A stretch of 64,000 nt of DNA from a virus. A model generated the notes under the pieces. The model made no database searches, was not told the origin of the DNA, and worked only from the letters and a program-made list of their open reading frames with translations. The stretch lies in IMG/VR virus record IMGVR_UViG_3300042541_001760, positions 117,689-181,688 of that record, one strand, 5' to 3'. This document shows, piece by piece, positions 25,237 to 52,032 of the stretch. Numbering within the stretch: the stretch's first letter is position 1; each line of letters opens with the position of its first letter. The position numbers and the translations under genes were made by a program.

Positions 25237-25300
25237 AAAAATACATTAATATAATTTCCTACTCTAATCGGTTTTCGGATACCCCGTTCTTATAACACAA

Positions 25301-26228: not shown

Positions 26229-26254
26229 TCCCCATCGTTTATTATGTACGGATG

Positions 26255-26286
26255 TTTGGCAGTGTCAGATATTAATTGTATCTTTG
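26255..26286 (+). promoter_or_regulatory. Host-type promoter TTTG-N20-TATCTTTG for tRNA-like RNA
   Basis: TTTG at 26255-26258, 20 nt, TATCTTTG at 26279-26286. The predicted start falls within a few nt of the tRNA-like 5' end at 26294, so this RNA has its own promoter. Confidence 0.75.
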
Positions 26287-26293
26287 TGGTGTT

Positions 26294-26362
26294 AGTTAGG
26301 TGGTGTAATTGGTAACACGGGAACTTATAGGCCAATCACAGGTTCGAGTCCTGTTCTGACTA
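26294..26362 (+). tRNA. tRNA-like RNA lacking a normal anticodon arm
   Basis: 69 nt. The acceptor AGTTAGG pairs with TCTGACT (two G-T wobbles) with discriminator A. D arm GTGT-AATTGGTA-ACAC. T arm ACAGG-TTCGAGT-CCTGT. Between the D and T arms there are only 19 nt (26319-26337) and no 5-bp stem with a 7-nt loop can be drawn, so no anticodon can be named. No CCA is encoded. Either a decayed tRNA or a reduced tRNA-like RNA. Its own promoter and intact arms argue for function. Confidence 0.6.
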
Positions 26363-26409
26363 CATCTGTATAACAGATTGGTGGAGCGACCTTTACGGTC
26401 CCAACTATT

Positions 26410-26432
26410 TGTGGGGGTTAAATTCCCCCACA
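26410..26432 (+). terminator. Strong hairpin after tRNA-like RNA
   Basis: TGTGGGGG-TTAAATT-CCCCCACA: 8 perfect pairs followed by TTTAGTTTG. It probably ends the tRNA-like transcript and trims its 3' side. Two smaller hairpins lie between it and the RNA (ATCTG/CAGAT and GACC/GGTC). Confidence 0.65.
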
Positions 26433-26473
26433 TTTAGTTTGTATATGTCAATATCTTTTTGTATATTAGCAAT

Positions 26474-26875
26474 ATGAAAGACGGACACATACTTCAGAGA
26501 GACATACACGTTAAGGCAATGAATAAACTTCTCCCCAAGTTTACCGTTGAACATAGCAGGATGTATAATATGGGTGAGACCGTTGTATCCTGTAAGATTA
26601 AGGTTAAGAGGGTTCGTAAGTATCACTATAACTATCTTCTTAATCCCCCTGATAAGATAAAGGCCATATACGAACTTGATGTTATTATTAGTGATGTTGT
26701 ATTTAATGATGTCACAGGTCGTACTCGTGACCCCAAGTTATTCATTATTAATAACAAGAGATCCTTTAATAGGGGGTTGAAATGGTTTGGTGTGGAAAAG
26801 ATTGAGAAGTATATTAATATGATTGACTCTGACCCTATGTCAATTAGAATATCAAAAATTGAATATAACCTCTAA
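26474..26875 (+). CDS. Hypothetical phage protein
   Basis: 133 residues from MKDGHILQRDIHVKAM. Basic and beta-rich (SCKIKVKRVRKYHYNYLL, YELDVIISDVVFND), with FIINNKRSFNRGLKWFG. No domain recognised. It sits alone in the gene-poor region, so it may relate to replication or control there. Confidence 0.55.
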   Translation: MKDGHILQRDIHVKAMNKLLPKFTVEHSRMYNMGETVVSCKIKVKRVRKYHYNYLLNPPDKIKAIYELDVIISDVVFNDVTGRTRDPKLFIINNKRSFNRGLKWFGVEKIEKYINMIDSDPMSIRISKIEYNL

Positions 26876-26879
26876 TTAA

Positions 26880-27072
26880 TTATCATATTGATAATTGAAC
26901 CTATTACCTTTTGATTATTATTCGTAATTATTCCCCACTTTTATTATCAATATGATAATATGGGGAATAATATAGGTAAAATATGGGGACTTTTTACATT
27001 ATAAATAATTAATCCCCCATTTCATTAACACATCTGTAATTAAACTACGTGGTTTGATTATCATAATGATAA
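26880..27072. repeat. Three palindromic sites TTATCA-N3-TGATAA
   Basis: Sites at 26880-26894, 26944-26958 and 27058-27072 all fit TTATCAnnnTGATAA. The middle one sits inside a larger stem: ATTATTCCCCA pairs with TGGGGAATAAT, flanked by ACCTAT and ATAGGT. The region lies between convergent genes. Candidates: operators for a dimeric regulator, origin iterons, or a bidirectional terminator. Confidence 0.6.
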
Positions 27073-27359
27073 TTTTCCACCATCTTCTTTGAGTGATCCA
27101 TAATTGCCACCCTGACATCATTGTAATCTTCCTCTGACAGTGGGGACATATCGTTGAAGTATGATATAATGTCAGTCATATCCGATGACAATAATATAAA
27201 GAACTCCTGTCTAATTGGTTTATTCACCCCAATCATCTTGGTCATCTCATAATGTACCTGTCCTTTTAGTCCATTAACTTCATAATTGGTGGTAAAAAGT
27301 GGGAACTCACTTTCAGTGTTAATAAATACGTGATTTAAGTGTTCGTAAAATTTATTCAT
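27045..27359 (-). CDS. Hypothetical phage protein
   Basis: 104 residues. MNKFYEHLNHVFINTESE, strands YEVNGLKGQVHYEMTKMIG, EFFILLSSDMTDIISYF, and an acidic helical C-terminus. It has a long structured leader (27360-27518), which suggests regulated translation. Not recognised. Confidence 0.55.
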   Translation of the reverse strand: MNKFYEHLNHVFINTESEFPLFTTNYEVNGLKGQVHYEMTKMIGVNKPIRQEFFILLSSDMTDIISYFNDMSPLSEEDYNDVRVAIMDHSKKMVENYHYDNQTT

Positions 27360-27526
27360 TGTTGATAACTTTATATGTCTGACACTATGTCAGGGGGTCA
27401 TTTTGTTGATAACTATATCTAAAATAACTTGTTTATGTCATAATGTCAGTCGGGGTTGAGATAGGGGATAATCCCCACGACAACGCTTCACAAGGTTTTT
27501 GTCTCCCACTTTCTACCACAAATATA
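27360..27526 (-). promoter_or_regulatory. Promoter element and structured leader of the 27045 gene
   Basis: A TATATTTG element (27526-27519) is flanked by the inverted repeat TTTCTAC/GTAGAAA. The ~160-nt leader holds hairpins GGGGATTATCCCC and CTGACA-TAG-TGTCAG. The start region AGTTATCAACAA-ATG occurs twice: once before a three-codon ORF (ATG ACC CCC TGA) and once, 2 nt shorter, before the real gene. This looks like an upstream-ORF control element. Confidence 0.45.
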
Positions 27527-27659
27527 GTAGAAATGGTTACTACATATCCGTGAAGGGTATTTTTCCCCTCTGACGCTATCTGTATGACCACTTTTTTAAC
27601 TACATACATTTCCCAGCAAAAAAATACACCCTTACAGGAGTATCGGCGGGAAGACACAT

Positions 27660-28127
27660 TTATGTGTTGTTGTAATAATTACTATATAATCTTCAACGGA
27701 TATCGTCAGATCCACCCATTAATAACACCTCAATAATACACCATTCATTCGTCCTTGTCAATAAATCCCCCCTTATTAATTTACTATATCCTTTAACATA
27801 TAAAAAACCATTTATGGTTACCATTATATCCATTCACATATAAATTACTTAATTGATTATCTTATACCCCTTCATCATTAAATCCCCTCAAATGGGTCGA
27901 TTCACACCCCTTTGGGTATAGTGGAAAATATTTTCCAAAAACAACGTTTTAGTGGAAAAAAAGTGTATTATATGACACTTTTATATGTTTATATAAGTTT
28001 ATTTTTATAAAAACCACTTGAAAGTGCAATTAAATACACTATTCGATGGGTATATTAATAACCCACCATAATGATTTACAAGAGTCCTTAATATGGACAA
28101 CTTAATTGGTGTGGTAATATGTGGGGG
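27660..28127. other. Noncoding stretch with short hairpins
   Basis: No convincing gene on either strand. Small inverted repeats are frequent: AAAAGTGT/ACACTTTT, GGAAAATATTTTCC, TGGGT/ACCCA and ACCATTTATGGT. Together with 25757-26100 and 26876-27044 it makes this the most gene-poor part of the window, a reasonable place to look for an origin or terminus. Confidence 0.5.
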
Positions 28128-28227
28128 TTTTAAGGTAAAGTATGAACGAACTTAAACGAGGTTTTGTGACCCCTTTTTTGGGGGAACAACTACCGAAGAT
28201 GGGGTGAGTGAATGATTTACCTTAAAA
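28128..28227 (+). repeat. 12-bp perfect inverted repeat enclosing a hairpin and mini-ORF
   Basis: TTTTAAGGTAAA (28128-28139) and TTTACCTTAAAA (28216-28227) can pair and enclose 76 nt that include the hairpin CCCC-TTTTTT-GGGG. A 21-codon ORF lies inside (28142-28207, MNELKRGFVTPFLGEQLPKM then G). It abuts the stop of the peptidoglycan-binding gene. Possible structured RNA or regulated micropeptide. Confidence 0.5.
28142..28207 (+). CDS. Possible 21-residue micropeptide
   Basis: ATG to TGA inside the inverted repeat at 28128-28227. Mildly amphipathic (ELKRGFVTPFLGEQLPKM). No ribosome-binding sequence or relative is recognised. The overlap with a stable structure is the only reason to list it. 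Confidence 0.25.
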   Translation: MNELKRGFVTPFLGEQLPKMG

Positions 28228-29238
28228 TCAAACAGCCCTAAGAGCCTCTGCGGTATCAGGTCCTACAAATCCATCAATAACTAAATCGTTTGCATCTTGG
28301 AACTCCTTAACCGCCGCAAGTGTTTTTTTGCCGAATGTTCCGTGACATTGTTTGTAGTCTTGTTTACACGCCTCGTTATCTTTTGCCAACTGAAATGCGG
28401 TGGTAAGTTGTCCACTGTTTAAAAGTGCTGATTGGATTCGTCTTACAATATCTCCTTTCATTCCATATTTAACGTATTTGTTACTATACGTTAAATCCTG
28501 TAAATCTAAATCAGTGGTACCTCTTCCTGTGGTTTTGGTTGATTTTCTATCTTTTTCGAAGGTAATTTTATTACCATCTAATACGTATTCTTTACTAAAT
28601 GAACCATTTCCATATGAAACGAATACTTCATAGCCAACTATATCTATACGTTTAACTTTGTTATCGGGATTTTTACTCTTAAAAACTAATTCGGGTAGGA
28701 TTTCTTTGATTTGGTTACCACCTTCTAAATATATATTTAAATTAATTAAATAAGCATCATATCCCTCTAAACTATTATTTTCATAGAACTCGTAAAATTT
28801 AGGGTAGTTCCCGTCTCCTTTGGATACAAGGTTTTTATCAAGTTTTCCGTTAACGACACTTTGAACTATAGTTTTAATGGTTTCAATCTTTGTTGTATTA
28901 TTTATATTGTTAATACTAAAAAAGGTATTATCATCTTTAAGATAGTTATTGGGTAATTTTGAATCTATCTTATCGATGAATATCTCCACCTCATTAGTAT
29001 CTCTTCTTAATAAAAGATTATAGTTACTACCATTACCCCCAAATAATTGATTACCGTTTTTTATATTATAATTAGATTCATCTAATTTTTCTAAATCTAA
29101 TCCCAAGTTAGTTACAATCTGATTAAATTCAGGAGTACCTGTTACGGTTTCATCTTCTGTAATTAATGGTCTAACATCACCCATTGTTGACTCCAATAGG
29201 TTATAAAATCTGTTTTTGTATTCATTAATAATATCCAT
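28228..29238 (-). CDS. Peptidoglycan-binding-domain protein with leader ending PLITE/D
   Basis: 336 residues. The N-terminal ~28 residues are leader-like and end in PLITE. The middle is beta-rich and Asn/Asp-rich (IKNGNQLFGGNGSNYNLLL). The C-terminal ~75 residues form a PG_binding_1 domain: KYGMKGDIVRRIQSALLNSG, then GTFGKKTLAAVKEFQDAN and VIDGFVGPDTAEAL, with a Cys-containing insertion (EACKQDYKQCHG). Inferred: a virion protein that contacts cell-wall peptidoglycan. TATTTATA lies upstream. Confidence 0.75.
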   Translation of the reverse strand: MDIINEYKNRFYNLLESTMGDVRPLITEDETVTGTPEFNQIVTNLGLDLEKLDESNYNIKNGNQLFGGNGSNYNLLLRRDTNEVEIFIDKIDSKLPNNYLKDDNTFFSINNINNTTKIETIKTIVQSVVNGKLDKNLVSKGDGNYPKFYEFYENNSLEGYDAYLINLNIYLEGGNQIKEILPELVFKSKNPDNKVKRIDIVGYEVFVSYGNGSFSKEYVLDGNKITFEKDRKSTKTTGRGTTDLDLQDLTYSNKYVKYGMKGDIVRRIQSALLNSGQLTTAFQLAKDNEACKQDYKQCHGTFGKKTLAAVKEFQDANDLVIDGFVGPDTAEALRAV

Positions 29239-29262
29239 AATATTGTTTTATATATAAATATA

Positions 29263-29610
29263 ATGATTCATATTAAACAACACCACGATATATTTATTGT
29301 TATGATTGAAAAATATGATAATATAATCCGTAAAGTTATCTTGAGAAAGTACCCCTTAATAACTGATGTTAAAGTTAATGACGAATATGAAGGATGGGGT
29401 TATCCATTTATTGGTAATTCTTATGTTGTATTATATAAAACGGAAGAATGTTTACCTGATGAAATGATGCGGAAGATTGATAAGGACACCAAATCATTGG
29501 TAAAATATTTTCCTAATGGTAGTCCCCTAAATATTACTCACGACGCAAAATGTTATTTTGATTGTGGGAATGGTTATGAATTCCGTGGGGGTTTAGGTTA
29601 TAAACATTAA
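29263..29610 (+). CDS. Hypothetical phage protein
   Basis: 115 residues, or 102 if the ATG of MIEKYDNIIRKVIL is used. Helix then KYPLITDVKVNDEYEGW, strands, and an aromatic C-terminus (CYFDCGNGYEFRGGLGYKH). Similar in outline to the protein at 10424. TATAAATATA is next to the first ATG. Confidence 0.5.
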   Translation: MIHIKQHHDIFIVMIEKYDNIIRKVILRKYPLITDVKVNDEYEGWGYPFIGNSYVVLYKTEECLPDEMMRKIDKDTKSLVKYFPNGSPLNITHDAKCYFDCGNGYEFRGGLGYKH

Positions 29611-29641
29611 ATAACCCCACCATCTGTATAGTCGCAATGTT

Positions 29642-30013
29642 TTATCGGGTATCACGTAATTTAACACACATTTCATAGTTTTCATTATCTATACATTCTT
29701 GAAGTGCTTTTTCACGTTGTTTTTTTATTATAAATTGCTCTAAATCATTTTCGTACTCTTTTATTTGATTTTCTTTAAAAATTGATAAATACTCATCAAA
29801 ATATTCTATCATAGTATTATCAGAGATAAAAAAATTTGAACAAACAATAGCAAAATCATGTTTAACTGAATCTATTGAATATGATTCTGATGGTTCTTCC
29901 CATAAATCAAATTCAGTTCTGTCATAATTTTCTTTAATATGTTTGATTAATAATGATAACTTATCAATAAAATATTTAGGTGCGTTTGGACAAAATTCAT
30001 TCATATACTCCAT
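29642..30013 (-). CDS. Acidic helical hypothetical protein
   Basis: 123 residues. The C-terminal third is a long charged helix (EYENDLEQFIIKKQREKALQ) ending in ECIDNENYEMCVKLRD, which resembles the UVR-like helix pair found in Clp adaptor and UvrB/C proteins (E-x-x-x-Y-E-x-C-x-x-L-R-D). Function unknown; a partner-binding role is possible. Confidence 0.55.
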   Translation of the reverse strand: MEYMNEFCPNAPKYFIDKLSLLIKHIKENYDRTEFDLWEEPSESYSIDSVKHDFAIVCSNFFISDNTMIEYFDEYLSIFKENQIKEYENDLEQFIIKKQREKALQECIDNENYEMCVKLRDTR

Positions 30014-30044
30014 ACTTTAAATATGATATTATTAATTGGTAATG

Positions 30045-30256
30045 TCAAATTTCAACCGCACCAGTATCGTCATATCTCAAGGTCGGCTCCACTATTGCAC
30101 CCGTAGATGTGTTTCTCAGCCTCTGACGTATCCTGATATACTGTAGTTGTGCAGTATAGATGGTTTTTGTCACGGTACCACCAACCTCATCACCCTTCTT
30201 TAGGGGGTCTGCGCAGTCTCACCTATTTCAGAGGATAATACACCTCACCTGCCGTT
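30045..30256 (-). pseudogene. Remnant coding fragment with a frameshift at C5
   Basis: Between the tRNA-like RNA and the next gene an open frame of 57 codons without ATG runs to a TGA at 30045-30047 (…GAIVEPTLRYDDTGAVEI). The adjacent frame upstream (SSEIGETAQTP) joins it through a -1 shift at a run of five C. Codon content looks protein-like, and G+C is near 47% by count, well above the neighbours. Probably the broken 3' end of a gene acquired from elsewhere; the C-run indel could also be a read error. It contains the hairpin TATACTG/CAGTATA. Confidence 0.4.
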
Positions 30257-30257
30257 G

Positions 30258-30383
30258 TAGTCAGGACAGGATTCGAACCTGCATCGCTTCCGCACTTCTG
30301 CGTTGATACCCTTTTTATTTAATGTGAGGGTTGGAAATACCTCATTACAGTTTTTCATCGTCTTCCATTTCCGCCACCTGACT
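30258..30383 (-). ncRNA. tRNA-like RNA with enlarged, non-canonical core (126 nt)
   Basis: The 5' end AGTCAGG-TG-GCGGAAATGGAAGACG is a tRNA-Leu-like acceptor and D arm. The 3' end TGCAGG-TTCGAAT-CCTGT-CCTGACT-A is a perfect T arm and acceptor. The two acceptor strands pair over all 7 bp. The ~70 nt between hold stems ACCCT/AGGGT and CGCA/TGCG but no standard anticodon arm. The 5' end lies in the TAG stop of the upstream gene. The ends are shared with the RNA at 30814, as is an internal GGAAGCG. Confidence 0.55.
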
Positions 30384-30738
30384 ATAATCCTTTTCTCATT
30401 ATTTCACTGTGGTAATTCTTTAATTTACTAATTCTATTTATTAACGTAGTACAAACGAATCTACCAAAACTTCTTTTAGTATAGTCAAACTTAATTTGTG
30501 TTCCCGTACTAGTCCCTGCGAATTTTGTATAACCTTTACCCCAATTCATTCCATTATCCACAACATCATACACTGAGAAAATGACATTTGTTTTTGTAAC
30601 CTTATGGAGGGTAACAATTACTTCGTGTAATGGGCTATATAACGATTGCTTACTATTAACCTCTCTTGGATTACTAACATATCCGTAAATGTTTCTTAGT
30701 TCGTCAAGAATATTATCTACCATTTCTGTCTCGTTCAT
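30382..30738 (-). CDS. Hypothetical protein upstream of a tRNA-like RNA
   Basis: 118 residues from MNETEMVDNILDELRN, the first ATG downstream of a consensus promoter. Strands EVIVTLHKVTKTNVIFSVYD, then GTSTGTQIKFDY and a basic C-terminus (KLKNYHSEIMRKGL). Its stop codon TAG overlaps the first base of the tRNA-like RNA, so both lie on one transcript. Function unknown. Confidence 0.6.
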   Translation of the reverse strand: MNETEMVDNILDELRNIYGYVSNPREVNSKQSLYSPLHEVIVTLHKVTKTNVIFSVYDVVDNGMNWGKGYTKFAGTSTGTQIKFDYTKRSFGRFVCTTLINRISKLKNYHSEIMRKGL

Positions 30739-30762
30739 AGTGTCGTCGTTTTTAGTACACAT

Positions 30763-30794
30763 CAAAGATACAATTAATATTTGAATCCACCAAA
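30763..30794 (-). promoter_or_regulatory. Host-type promoter TTTG-N20-TATCTTTG (unit 1)
   Basis: Minus strand TTTG (30794-30791), 20 nt, TATCTTTG (30770-30763). The spacer and the downstream GTGTACTAAAAACGA are almost identical to those of the promoter at 31276-31307, showing that the unit was duplicated. Confidence 0.8.
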
Positions 30795-30813
30795 CATCCG
30801 TATAAAATAAATG

Positions 30814-31028
30814 TAGTCAGGACAGGATTCGAACCTGCATGAGATGAGGAGTCAACTTAACTATCTCCTACGCTTCCCTTGTATATTTCTACAGACATTA
30901 CTGTCGGGCATCTCTAACCTAGATAATGTAGCGTCTACCAAGAAATAACATTGACCTCGTTGTGGATTTTCACCACTATTAGTTAATCTTCCGATACGAG
31001 GTTAATTAAATCATTCCGCCACCTGACT
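30814..31028 (-). ncRNA. tRNA-like RNA with D-loop insertion and enlarged core (215 nt)
   Basis: The acceptor AGTCAGG/CCTGACT-A (7 of 7 pairs) and T arm are the same as at 30258. The D arm GCG-GAAT … TGGTAGA-CGC is a tRNA-Leu pattern split by ~72 nt that fold on their own (ACCTCGT/ACGAGGT enclosing GTGG/CCAC). About 66 further nt separate the D arm from GGAGATA-GTTAAGT-TGACTCC, a possible anticodon-like hairpin with TAA at positions 34-36 and one mismatch. Options: an intron-bearing tRNA-Leu(UAA), or a tRNA-like regulatory or tmRNA-like RNA. Confidence 0.55.
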
Positions 31029-31031
31029 ATT

Positions 31032-31253
31032 TTATTCTAACTCTTTTATCATTTTCAATATCTTATCAATACTCTCAATGACTTTGAAACCACCGTTATT
31101 GTGGGTTGTTACACCAACCAAAGTATGAGCGACTGTCTGTTCAAGTCGGCCGTATTTGTACTTTTCAGTTACTTCGTATATATGCCCGATAAATGCAGGA
31201 TTAATGAAGATTGTTGATTTGTCCTGTAAACTCGTGAGTTTAATGAATTTCAT
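31032..31253 (-). CDS. FlbD-like small protein upstream of a tRNA-like RNA
   Basis: 73 residues from MKFIKLTSLQDKSTIFINPA. Pattern: FIKLTS, a conserved IN.xFI, then VGVTTHNNGGFKVIESIDKI. It is paralogous to the protein at 33899 (FIKLTTSTDLPVYINIRNI). Such beta-rich FlbD-like proteins are common small phage genes of unknown role. A consensus promoter lies upstream and a tRNA-like RNA 3 nt downstream of the stop. Confidence 0.65.
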   Translation of the reverse strand: MKFIKLTSLQDKSTIFINPAFIGHIYEVTEKYKYGRLEQTVAHTLVGVTTHNNGGFKVIESIDKILKMIKELE

Positions 31254-31275
31254 ATCTATCGTTTTTAGTACACAC

Positions 31276-31307
31276 CAAAGATACAATTAATATTTGAATC
31301 TGCCAAA
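31276..31307 (-). promoter_or_regulatory. Host-type promoter TTTG-N20-TATCTTTG (unit 2)
   Basis: Minus strand TTTG (31307-31304), 20 nt, TATCTTTG (31283-31276). Twin of the promoter at 30763-30794. Confidence 0.8.
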
Positions 31308-31317
31308 CACCAAAGTT

Positions 31318-44251: not shown

Positions 44252-45061
44252 TTATTCTTGTAATAACTTATACGCTCTTGCTAATCTTGTGAGACCTATT
44301 CCTGCACCAAATCTGCTAAAGAAATTTAATGACAGGAACTCATCCAATTCTTTCTCAACTCTTTCTTTTCCGAACAGTTCAAAAAGTTTATCCGAGTATT
44401 TACCATCCTCAATTGTATAAAACAACTCTCTCATTTCTTTCACATCACAACTTCTCTCAGCGCTTCCGATTGTTTCTTGTCCGAACAATATAACATCAAC
44501 CTTATTAAATGTTCCATCCTCGTTTCTTTTCATATTCCAAAATGGATTGGTTCTTAATGGGAACTTTTGAAGTGATATTGACGATCCTAAACTTCCCCAC
44601 ATCATTGTCTCTTGTTCATCCTCTAAAATAGATACATTATATTTTCTACACATATCTTCATATGTAATTTCCAATGGTGGTTTAAACCCTAAGAATTCCA
44701 ATAACTCTTTTTCTAATTGTTTTAAATCCTCAAAAGTTCCTTTACTCTCCACCTCAAACATTGGGAATATTAATTCGTGTCTACCAGGGATTGGATTCTT
44801 CTCTTGTCTGTATGATGTTGATATACAAAATACACCTTCCCATTCAGGATTCTTCAATAATTCATACTCCAACCACATCTGTCCTGTTTGTGGTAATGGC
44901 CAAACCTCACCATTGTAATCAAATGTTGTGATTGAATGTGGATTCTCGCATGCCGCCAAAATTGATAATCTTGATTGTGTTGGTACCTCAACATACCCTT
45001 TACGAAGAAAAAATGTTCTCATTCGCTGAACTAACTCATTGTAAATTTTTGTGTCTTTCAT
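44252..45061 (-). CDS. Class II aminoacyl-tRNA-synthetase-like core (Asp/Asn type), no anticodon domain
   Basis: 269 residues. Motif 2 STSYRQEKNPIPGRHELIFP (Arg-x-Glu, near residue 81), FEVE, then FGQETIGSAERS and motif 3 GAGIGLTRLAR at the C-terminus. These place it with AspRS/AsnRS/LysRS and the related archaeal asparagine synthetase (AS-A/AsnRS paralogue). The N-terminal OB-fold anticodon-binding domain of AspRS/AsnRS is missing. Possible roles: amino acid activation or ligation, asparagine synthesis, or charging of a tRNA-like RNA. Confidence 0.85.
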   Translation of the reverse strand: MKDTKIYNELVQRMRTFFLRKGYVEVPTQSRLSILAACENPHSITTFDYNGEVWPLPQTGQMWLEYELLKNPEWEGVFCISTSYRQEKNPIPGRHELIFPMFEVESKGTFEDLKQLEKELLEFLGFKPPLEITYEDMCRKYNVSILEDEQETMMWGSLGSSISLQKFPLRTNPFWNMKRNEDGTFNKVDVILFGQETIGSAERSCDVKEMRELFYTIEDGKYSDKLFELFGKERVEKELDEFLSLNFFSRFGAGIGLTRLARAYKLLQE

Positions 45062-50823: not shown

Positions 50824-52032
50824 TTAATTAGAGAGGGGCGCTTTAATTGTTGGGTGTGATTGATAGTTCTCCAAAATAACATCATTGACTGAACTACAGA
50901 ATATACCATCTCTAACGTGTACTGTTGGTAGTGGATATGGTTCTCTTGTTCGTATTGGGACTTTTAACTCATCCAAAAGTAGTGAAGAGATAACCTCCGG
51001 TTCATTTAAATCTTGTGATAATAATGATTTTGCGTCTTTGTTTGTTTCAAATAATTTTTCTATTCTTTCTATGTGAGTTAATTCTCTTCCAATCTGCTCC
51101 TTGGCTTGTTCAATATGATTCAAATACAAATGTGTATCACCTAAGTTTCCAATCAATTCATCAGGTACCATATTTACTTCATCAGCAATCATCATTAGTA
51201 ACAATCCATAAGAAGCAATGTTGAATGGTAAACCTAAGAATGTATCACAACTTCTCATATTAAACATTAAAGATATTGCTCTACGAGGTACCCCTCTTTT
51301 ATCTAATGTAATATGATGGTCTGGGTATTCACCAATTAAACTATCAAAATGATTATCATACTTCTGTCTTTCTTGAACTGACATTTCTCTTGTATAAACT
51401 TGAAAACTATAATGACAAGGCGGTAACACTTGATGTGGTAAATCTGCAGGATTCCACGCTGAGACCATTAATCGTCTTGAGTCTGGATTTGTTTTAAGGT
51501 CGTTGATTAGATTTGCGATTTGGTCTATTGGATTTCTTTCCCAACTCCCCCACTCCGTACCAATACCATTTTCTATTTTTCCTTTCTCTATTGTTAGTAT
51601 TTTAGGTACATCCCAACTTCTCCATTGTTTACCATACACGGGCCCGAGTTCCCCAATTCTCCAACCATTTGCGTCTACTCTACTCTCTTCACCGTTCTTT
51701 ATCATTTCAATAAATCTTTCTTTGGTTGCGGGTTCTAATCCATCACCAACCCGTTTAAGGTAACCTTGATAAGCATCACCATCCCAAATATGACAATCAT
51801 TATCAACAAGGTATTTGATATTGGTATCACCTCGTAAAAACCATAATAATTCAGTTACCATTGTTTTGAACGCCATTTTCTTAGTAGTCAAGAGTGGAAA
51901 TCCAGTTTTCATATCGTGACGGATTTGTCTACCAAACACTGAGATTGTTCCGCCATTTCTTGTTTCTTTCTTTACTCCATTATCAAGAATGTCTTGAAGG
52001 AGTGATGTGTATGTTTTATCTATGTTATTCAT
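50824..52032 (-). CDS. thyA: Thymidylate synthase
   Basis: 402 residues; E. coli ThyA has 264, so several insertions are present (around residues 105-165 and 330-370). Motifs: TGFPLLTTKKMAFKTMVTEL, WLRGDTN-type WFLRGDTNIKYL, RRLMVSAWNP, the catalytic Cys in LPPCHYSFQVY, FNMRSCDTFLGLPFNIASYG and GDTHLYLNHIEQ. It methylates dUMP using methylene-THF and so depends on the DHFR at 2097. The C-terminus ends IKAPLSN rather than IKAPVAV. Confidence 0.95.
   Translation of the reverse strand: MNNIDKTYTSLLQDILDNGVKKETRNGGTISVFGRQIRHDMKTGFPLLTTKKMAFKTMVTELLWFLRGDTNIKYLVDNDCHIWDGDAYQGYLKRVGDGLEPATKERFIEMIKNGEESRVDANGWRIGELGPVYGKQWRSWDVPKILTIEKGKIENGIGTEWGSWERNPIDQIANLINDLKTNPDSRRLMVSAWNPADLPHQVLPPCHYSFQVYTREMSVQERQKYDNHFDSLIGEYPDHHITLDKRGVPRRAISLMFNMRSCDTFLGLPFNIASYGLLLMMIADEVNMVPDELIGNLGDTHLYLNHIEQAKEQIGRELTHIERIEKLFETNKDAKSLLSQDLNEPEVISSLLLDELKVPIRTREPYPLPTVHVRDGIFCSSVNDVILENYQSHPTIKAPLSN

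Follow-up and report, generated by a model that had tools for sequence, protein, structure and literature searches.

Viruses of Bacteroidota carry a large family of small RNAs, apparently undescribed, that are built on the frame of transfer RNA (tRNA) and lack the arm used in decoding. Three members lie in the window analysed here, a stretch of 64,000 nucleotides (nt) that comprises bases 117689-181688 of the 261 kb IMG/VR virus record IMGVR_UViG_3300042541_001760. Coordinates refer to this window unless preceded by C1, which denotes the whole record, or by an L number, which denotes a fetched locus. The tRNA frame, the absence of an anticodon arm, the conservation of some inserts, and the exchange and loss of inserts are demonstrated by comparison of sequences. 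We consider it probable, if not strongly so, that the RNAs are tRNA-processed, non-decoding accessory RNAs that act in trans, a natural version of the engineered "tRNA scaffold."

tRNA-like RNAs in the window

The acceptor, D and T arms of a tRNA are present in RNA1, RNA2 and RNA3, and the anticodon arm is absent from each. RNA1 (26294-26362, + strand) is a 69-nt tRNA frame without a canonical anticodon arm, and its acceptor, AGTTAGG/TCTGACT, forms seven pairs, two of which are G-U. RNA2 (30258-30383, - strand, 126 nt) and RNA3 (30814-31028, - strand, 215 nt) have the same tRNA frame with the acceptor AGTCAGG/CCTGACT, and their final 29 nt, two flanking bases included, are identical. In RNA2, the anticodon position is occupied by a 76-nt insert (30283-30358, - strand) with the core ATGAAAAACTGYAATGAGG...CGCAGRAGTGCGG. 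The additional length of RNA3 is made up of two inserts, a 71-nt module in the D loop that contains a minihelix-like hairpin (30942-31012, - strand) and a 92-nt insert at the anticodon position, between the D arm and the T arm (30839-30930, - strand). An earlier sequence-only reading of the window had proposed three tRNA-like RNAs without ordinary anticodon arms, and their coordinates and arms are confirmed, in a family far larger than was foreseen. That reading had placed the excess length of each RNA in a single core between the D and T arms; the lack of a plain anticodon arm holds, and the excess of RNA3 is now divided between the two inserts. The acceptors, which it described as nearly the same, are indeed so, and a fourth copy in the same phage genome can be added from outside the window (C1:84645-84728, - strand; acceptor GGTCAGG/CCTGATC), near the seven ordinary tRNAs of the phage. 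The pattern of the 3' half matches the phage genome four times, versus zero times for a reversed control.

The Rfam tRNA model (RF00005) scores RNA1 at 41.5 bits, above the gathering threshold of 29, and RNA2 at 28.0 bits, slightly below it, and gives no match for RNA3. ARAGORN calls none of the three. Minimum-energy folding is uninformative and does not reveal the architecture (z = 0.01, -1.5 and -1.8 for RNA1, RNA2 and RNA3). The evidence for the architecture is comparative, rather than drawn from a plain energy fold.

A family on the tRNA frame

An exact search of viral contigs for 25 bases, the complement of the 3' half shared by RNA2 and RNA3, gave at least 120 matches. Nearly all of these have a matching acceptor strand upstream, which defines RNAs of 62 to more than 200 nt. 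With looser matching, contigs carry 1-14 copies, and a reversed-pattern control gives none. Given the recurrence of this architecture across hundreds of contigs, and the four matches in the phage genome itself against none for the reversed control, the RNAs are more than chance resemblances. When the loci were scanned with the acceptor sequence left free, they yielded 239 distinct RNAs with AGTCAGG-type acceptors and a median length of about 102 nt, along with a similar number of ordinary tRNAs, whose lengths peak at 70-75 nt. After further searches, the family stands at 348 distinct members in 207 loci; the scan behind this larger count also found 39 RNAs with other acceptors that are not called by ARAGORN, many of which look like the same kind. 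The search pattern fixed the 3' half of the first sample, and the scanner accepted only RNAs with U8; a second, independent sample was picked by the 5' half alone and recovers the architecture, with a perfect T arm and a 7-base-pair (bp) acceptor in 81 of 104 cases.

Members have the 7-bp acceptor, the D arm and the T arm of a tRNA, with conserved elbow residues. Variants in the D stem are paired in 63% of cases, versus 33 +/- 4% after shuffling (0/500). A14 is kept in 213 of the 239 members and the discriminator A in 207, and the GG of the D loop is also kept. C74 is present in 234/239, as it is in the ordinary phage tRNAs (219/219). The 5-bp anticodon stem with a 7-nt loop, on the other hand, is detected by ARAGORN no more often than in RNAs with shuffled middles. 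ARAGORN makes a full call for 39 of 239 members, compared with 21-35 when their middles are shuffled, and for 10 of 81 in the 5'-half sample, compared with 6-10. For ordinary tRNAs of the same loci, the corresponding figures are 204 of 219 and 56-97. By these comparisons, members of the family keep the frame of a tRNA but have no arm for decoding.

Exact matches in bacterial and archaeal genomes are rare, with four among 85,462, all on contigs of Bacteroidota metagenome-assembled genomes that may be phage DNA; a host tRNA was rejected on this basis as the source of the 3' half. A blastn search of the RNA2-RNA3 region against annotated phage records found no near relative. The sole match of the 3' half at E <= 0.05, in the crAss-like record cr4_1, was not counted, given its differing acceptor and its resemblance, by eye, to a near-complete tRNA. 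That gene (L283:1443-1525), which lies in an unannotated gap, appears by eye to have a 5-bp anticodon stem and a 9-nt loop (ACTGATAAA). Altered acceptors also occur: several copies in one phage (G039, the record of L080), at loci L216 and L244, have AGTCCTG/CAGGACT rather than AGTCAGG/CCTGACT.

Interchangeable inserts

One frame is found with many different structured inserts. The middles of the 239 RNAs fall into 169 clusters, and some of the inserts, as judged from their alignments, are clearly under selection. Insert X (TAGTGGATATGTAAGCGGGC...) occurs in 18 contigs, joined to five acceptors (AGTCAGG, GATCAAG, TGTTAGG, TGTTAAG and CATTAGG) and to several T stems, all fully paired. In its alignment, 99.7% of structure cells pair, versus 28-42% when the structure is slid, and there are 38 two-sided changes, some in helices within the insert, versus 11.6 +/- 2.8 after shuffling. 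Because that structure was derived from the very alignment on which it was scored, shuffling gives the fairer comparison. The insert of RNA2 is found in five distinct RNAs, four of them in other contigs, and their alignment offers next to no informative covariation.

The D-loop module of RNA3 is known from 11 distinct sequences, including RNA3, and all of those listed carry it within the D loop of a tRNA frame of this type. A 7-bp stem, ACCTCGT/ACGAGGT, spans 30954-31002 and encloses a T-arm-like GTGG...CCAC, and one copy of the module has the exact loop TTCGAAT. The alignment is paired in 97.2% of cells, versus 35-43% when slid. The module thus resembles a tRNA minihelix nested in a tRNA frame. 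Of 301 middles, eight contain a second T-arm-like hairpin, versus 0.8 after shuffling, and four of the eight are, in part, this module. The related RNAs of L275 and L281 differ by the presence or absence of a D-loop insert.

Comparison of loci with homologous flanks suggests that the RNAs are accessory, exchangeable genes. Where homologous upstream flanks from different contigs abut the RNA, the middles of 23 of 35 pairs are no more alike than background (identity below 0.55), and in no pair does identity reach 0.75; for downstream flanks, the counts are 26 and 2 of 40 pairs. In one locus, with flank identities of 91% and 99%, the 137-nt RNA of L288 is replaced by an unrelated 67-nt RNA in L286 and L291, and unrelated RNAs likewise lie between homologous flanks in L205 and L354. 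Internal deletions that break the RNA are found between phages with flanks that are 98-100% identical (L288, L330 and L198). Such exchange would be consistent with a role in the conflict between phage and host.

Proposed function and alternative explanations

Under the reading that we prefer, the retained acceptor stem, D arm and T arm would be recognised by host enzymes for tRNA maturation. RNase P would trim the 5' end, and RNase Z or exonucleases, together with CCA addition, would handle the 3' end, such that the RNA is excised and stabilised or protected. The pattern of C74 and discriminator, which resembles that of the phages' ordinary tRNAs, bears only indirectly on such maturation. An interchangeable, separately folded insert would substitute for the anticodon arm and sometimes for the D loop. 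We infer that the RNAs are expressed, are matured by tRNA enzymes and, rather than decode, act in trans through the insert as a functional cargo. The target of the insert would most likely be in the host, for takeover or counter-defence, which would explain the fast turnover of inserts; this anti-host role is the least certain part of the proposal. It is a tentative extension, and one that we hold at somewhat below even confidence, that the frame is a general carrier in phages of Bacteroidota, by which a host-matured tRNA body presents structured effectors from an extensive repertoire with rapid exchange, each with a different target in the host or in a rival.

Several observations weigh against this reading. 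The middles are modestly more structured than shuffles (median z of -0.56). Singletons account for 137 of the 239 inserts, and an exact-match search of viral contigs found no homologue of the RNA1 insert; therefore, many inserts could be neutral. The inserts of the phage's own four RNAs show complementarity to the phage genome only at the level of chance, with no target found, and antisense action on that genome is not supported. Finally, many members sit within operons, with a stop codon at most 30 nt upstream in 68 of 239 and an open reading frame (ORF) that begins with ATG at most 40 nt downstream, mostly 14-17 nt away, in 64 of 239, versus one in the antisense control.

Tight placement between genes of an operon also fits a role in processing, and the processing of neighbouring transcripts may be a second effect of the RNAs. 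Taken as the whole explanation, it would make the frames tRNA punctuation in cis, where RNase P and RNase Z cut polycistronic transcripts to define the ends of mRNAs or other non-coding RNAs and the middle is filler. The extreme diversity of the middles is in keeping with filler, as is the occurrence of non-coding spacers of about 100-230 nt flanked by tRNAs or tRNA-like RNAs, and stop codons can overlap the 5' end of the RNA. The last is the case in the window, where the TAG stop of a 127-amino-acid ORF (30382-30765, - strand) overlaps the first two bases of RNA2, in the order promoter, ORF127, RNA2. An 84-amino-acid ORF (31032-31286, - strand) similarly ends 3 nt before RNA3, in the order promoter, ORF84, RNA3. 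Filler, however, would not account for the conservation across phages of insert X, the RNA2 insert and the RNA3 D-loop module, nor for insert X being more conserved than its acceptor, with compensatory changes.

Promoters also speak against mere processing sites. The consensus for promoters of the Bacteroidota type is TTTG-N~20-TANNTTTG. RNA1 is directly preceded by a block that fits it (26253-26293, + strand), with TTTG at 26255-26258, a 20-nt spacer and TATCTTTG at 26279-26286, and is followed by a terminator-like hairpin (26410-26432, + strand; TGTGGGGG..CCCCCACA then TTTAGTTTGT). With these two elements, RNA1 has the appearance of an independent gene. The promoter blocks of the ORF127-RNA2 unit (30757-30811, - strand) and of the ORF84-RNA3 unit (31259-31309, - strand) form the direct repeat D1, 94% identical over 51 nt. 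The first of these also forms the inverted repeat I1 with 26238-26292, and all three blocks are alike in sequence, with inverted repeats I1 and I2 at 84-88%. Across the family, such a promoter lies directly upstream of 14 of 343 members, versus 1.4 after shuffling, which favours RNA genes over mere sites of processing. As a full account, punctuation is unlikely, although it is the best placed of the alternatives.

Decoy action, which is distinctly unlikely, would have the RNAs mimic tRNA in order to occupy or mislead either tRNA enzymes or those host defences that are directed at tRNA, such as anticodon nucleases and tRNA-cleaving effectors. An RNA with no anticodon loop could not be cut there, and a variable part could evade attackers that are specific for sequence. 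tRNAs are known targets of bacterial immunity, as described in PMC12851939. The fast turnover, exchange and loss of the RNAs, with the elbow elements retained, would suit a decoy, but conserved inserts and nested modules would be unnecessary for a simple one.

SmpB, the synthetase and transfer-messenger RNA

The sequence-only reading raised the possibility of a system like trans-translation, run with the phage's own SmpB and the synthetase encoded at 44252-45061 (- strand). The RNAs would then mimic tRNAs, carry an amino acid attached by an enzyme that ignores the anticodon, and work at the ribosome with the aid of SmpB from phage or host. The synthetase is a class II catalytic core without an anticodon-binding domain. 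Among solved structures, it is closest to asparaginyl-tRNA synthetase, and it is of the same family as the "tRNA ligase" of P-SSM2, one of the cyanophages in which it also occurs; viral contigs contain no fewer than 592 stretches that match it. The presence of both proteins in the phage would suit charged mimics, as would the retained elbow of D and T loops, A73 and C74. The D arm resembles that of tRNA-Leu, and leucyl- and seryl-tRNA synthetases do not require the anticodon.

The phage genome, however, has an ordinary transfer-messenger RNA (tmRNA) with G3:U70 (C1:71764-72157; RF00023, 83 bits), which explains the SmpB. In the RNAs themselves, pair 3:70 is U-A, and RF00023 has no match in the window; the earlier view that they are not standard tmRNAs is borne out. 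SmpB is found in four of 50 large RNA-bearing contigs, and three of these four, with identical match scores, seem to be one kind of phage; the synthetase (phrog_29758) is found in two of the 50. Of 44 contigs with the synthetase, on the other hand, 17 have the 3'-half motif. Because the contigs are fragments, these absences carry limited weight, but a partner that the RNAs require should nonetheless turn up more often. SmpB and the synthetase were rejected as partners on the basis of the tmRNA and of this co-occurrence; that either is a general partner of the RNA family is not supported, although in this one phage they may use the RNAs. A single enzyme that reads one fixed acceptor is disfavoured in that the acceptor varies while insert X stays, in combination with five acceptors. 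Overall, charged mimics are very unlikely.

It is extremely unlikely that the shared frame is mainly a site of recombination or insertion at the level of DNA, with an RNA that has no function. Whole RNAs are exchanged between homologous flanks and the RNA ends form an inverted repeat, as would be expected of such cassettes, but frames with other acceptors keep their pairing through compensatory change, and comparisons of the same locus gave no clean empty site and one 25-nt remnant only. The chance that these are degenerate or intron-containing tRNA genes is very small, despite the score of RNA1 above the Rfam cut-off and the D arm like that of tRNA-Leu, given the compensatory changes in frame and inserts, the intact ordinary tRNAs in the same loci, and the absence from Rfam scans of group I or II introns or other families inside the RNAs, which, with members of 66-77 nt that have no room for an intron, makes the splicing to an ordinary tRNA that was raised earlier unlikely.

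Relation to known RNAs

One of the closest designs is man-made. A tRNA scaffold engineered for recombinant RNA (PMC3753655) accepts structured RNAs of up to at least 250 nt at the anticodon stem-loop and, like the phage RNAs, retains the acceptor stem, D arm and T arm. Unlike the scaffold, the phage RNAs are natural, occur in hundreds of contigs with many inserts, and have inserts in the D loop as well. The pseudo-tRNA tRNA-Other of Bacillus cereus (PMC3399842) is also a tRNA-like RNA without a role in translation, but it stands alone, as a cellular RNA that carries a Trp anticodon; it is not modular and belongs to no phage family. In tmRNA, tRNA-like ends likewise enclose a long middle that is not tRNA, whereas RNA1-RNA3 have no identified reading frame for a tag, no G3:U70 and no match to the Rfam tmRNA model. 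The tRNA-like structures of RNA viruses (PMC5723415) are also viral mimics of tRNA, but as part of an RNA genome rather than as separate RNA genes of DNA phages. Pseudo-tRNAs, tmRNA and viral tRNA-like structures are therefore kin in kind, and not in architecture. GOLLD and ROOL (PMC12286853) are large structured RNAs too, but of different families and without a tRNA frame.

Rfam has no such family beyond partial matches to tRNA, and ARAGORN misses most members. A full-text literature search, with bioRxiv preprints and most subscription papers outside its scope, found no description of such a family.

Neighbouring RNAs and genes

Family searches assign ORF127 to no Pfam family, and its one PHROG match, to a group of unknown function, is weak; ORF84 has no match in Pfam or PHROG. 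A conserved non-coding RNA of about 216 nt (L212:14730-14945, - strand, about C1:84730-84945) starts with CAATGAGTAAGAGATACTCA and ends with CTCAAGGTGGGGAAA. It has no long ORF, is flanked on both sides by tRNAs or tRNA-like RNAs, and has no Rfam match at gathering; relatives are found in L106, L176, L206, L222, L225, L230 and other loci. A second recurrent family of non-coding spacers, 157-253 nt in length, starts with CACGTT right after a tRNA-like RNA (L114, L210, L218 and L222). A possible selenocysteine tRNA is found in a phage contig (L222:1191-1276, - strand; 48 bits versus a cut-off of 47). In the phage studied here, a GOLLD RNA adjoins tRNA-Met (L212:8473-8874, - strand; 306 bits). 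The window also has a match to the DUF805b RNA (25256-25288, - strand; 39.3 bits versus an Rfam cut-off of 35.6) and a 402-amino-acid thymidylate synthase (50824-52032, - strand), whose Pfam domain is matched in two stretches, which suggests an internal insertion.

Implications

If the proposed function is correct, the tRNA body would be a natural vehicle by which phages express many functional RNAs, and the family would be a large source of hitherto unknown RNA effectors, most of which escape Rfam and programs that find tRNAs. RNA engineering, in which this design was invented independently, could also make use of the inserts and D-loop modules. What the inserts bind, and the part that RNA effectors would play in the conflict between phage and host, would become testable.

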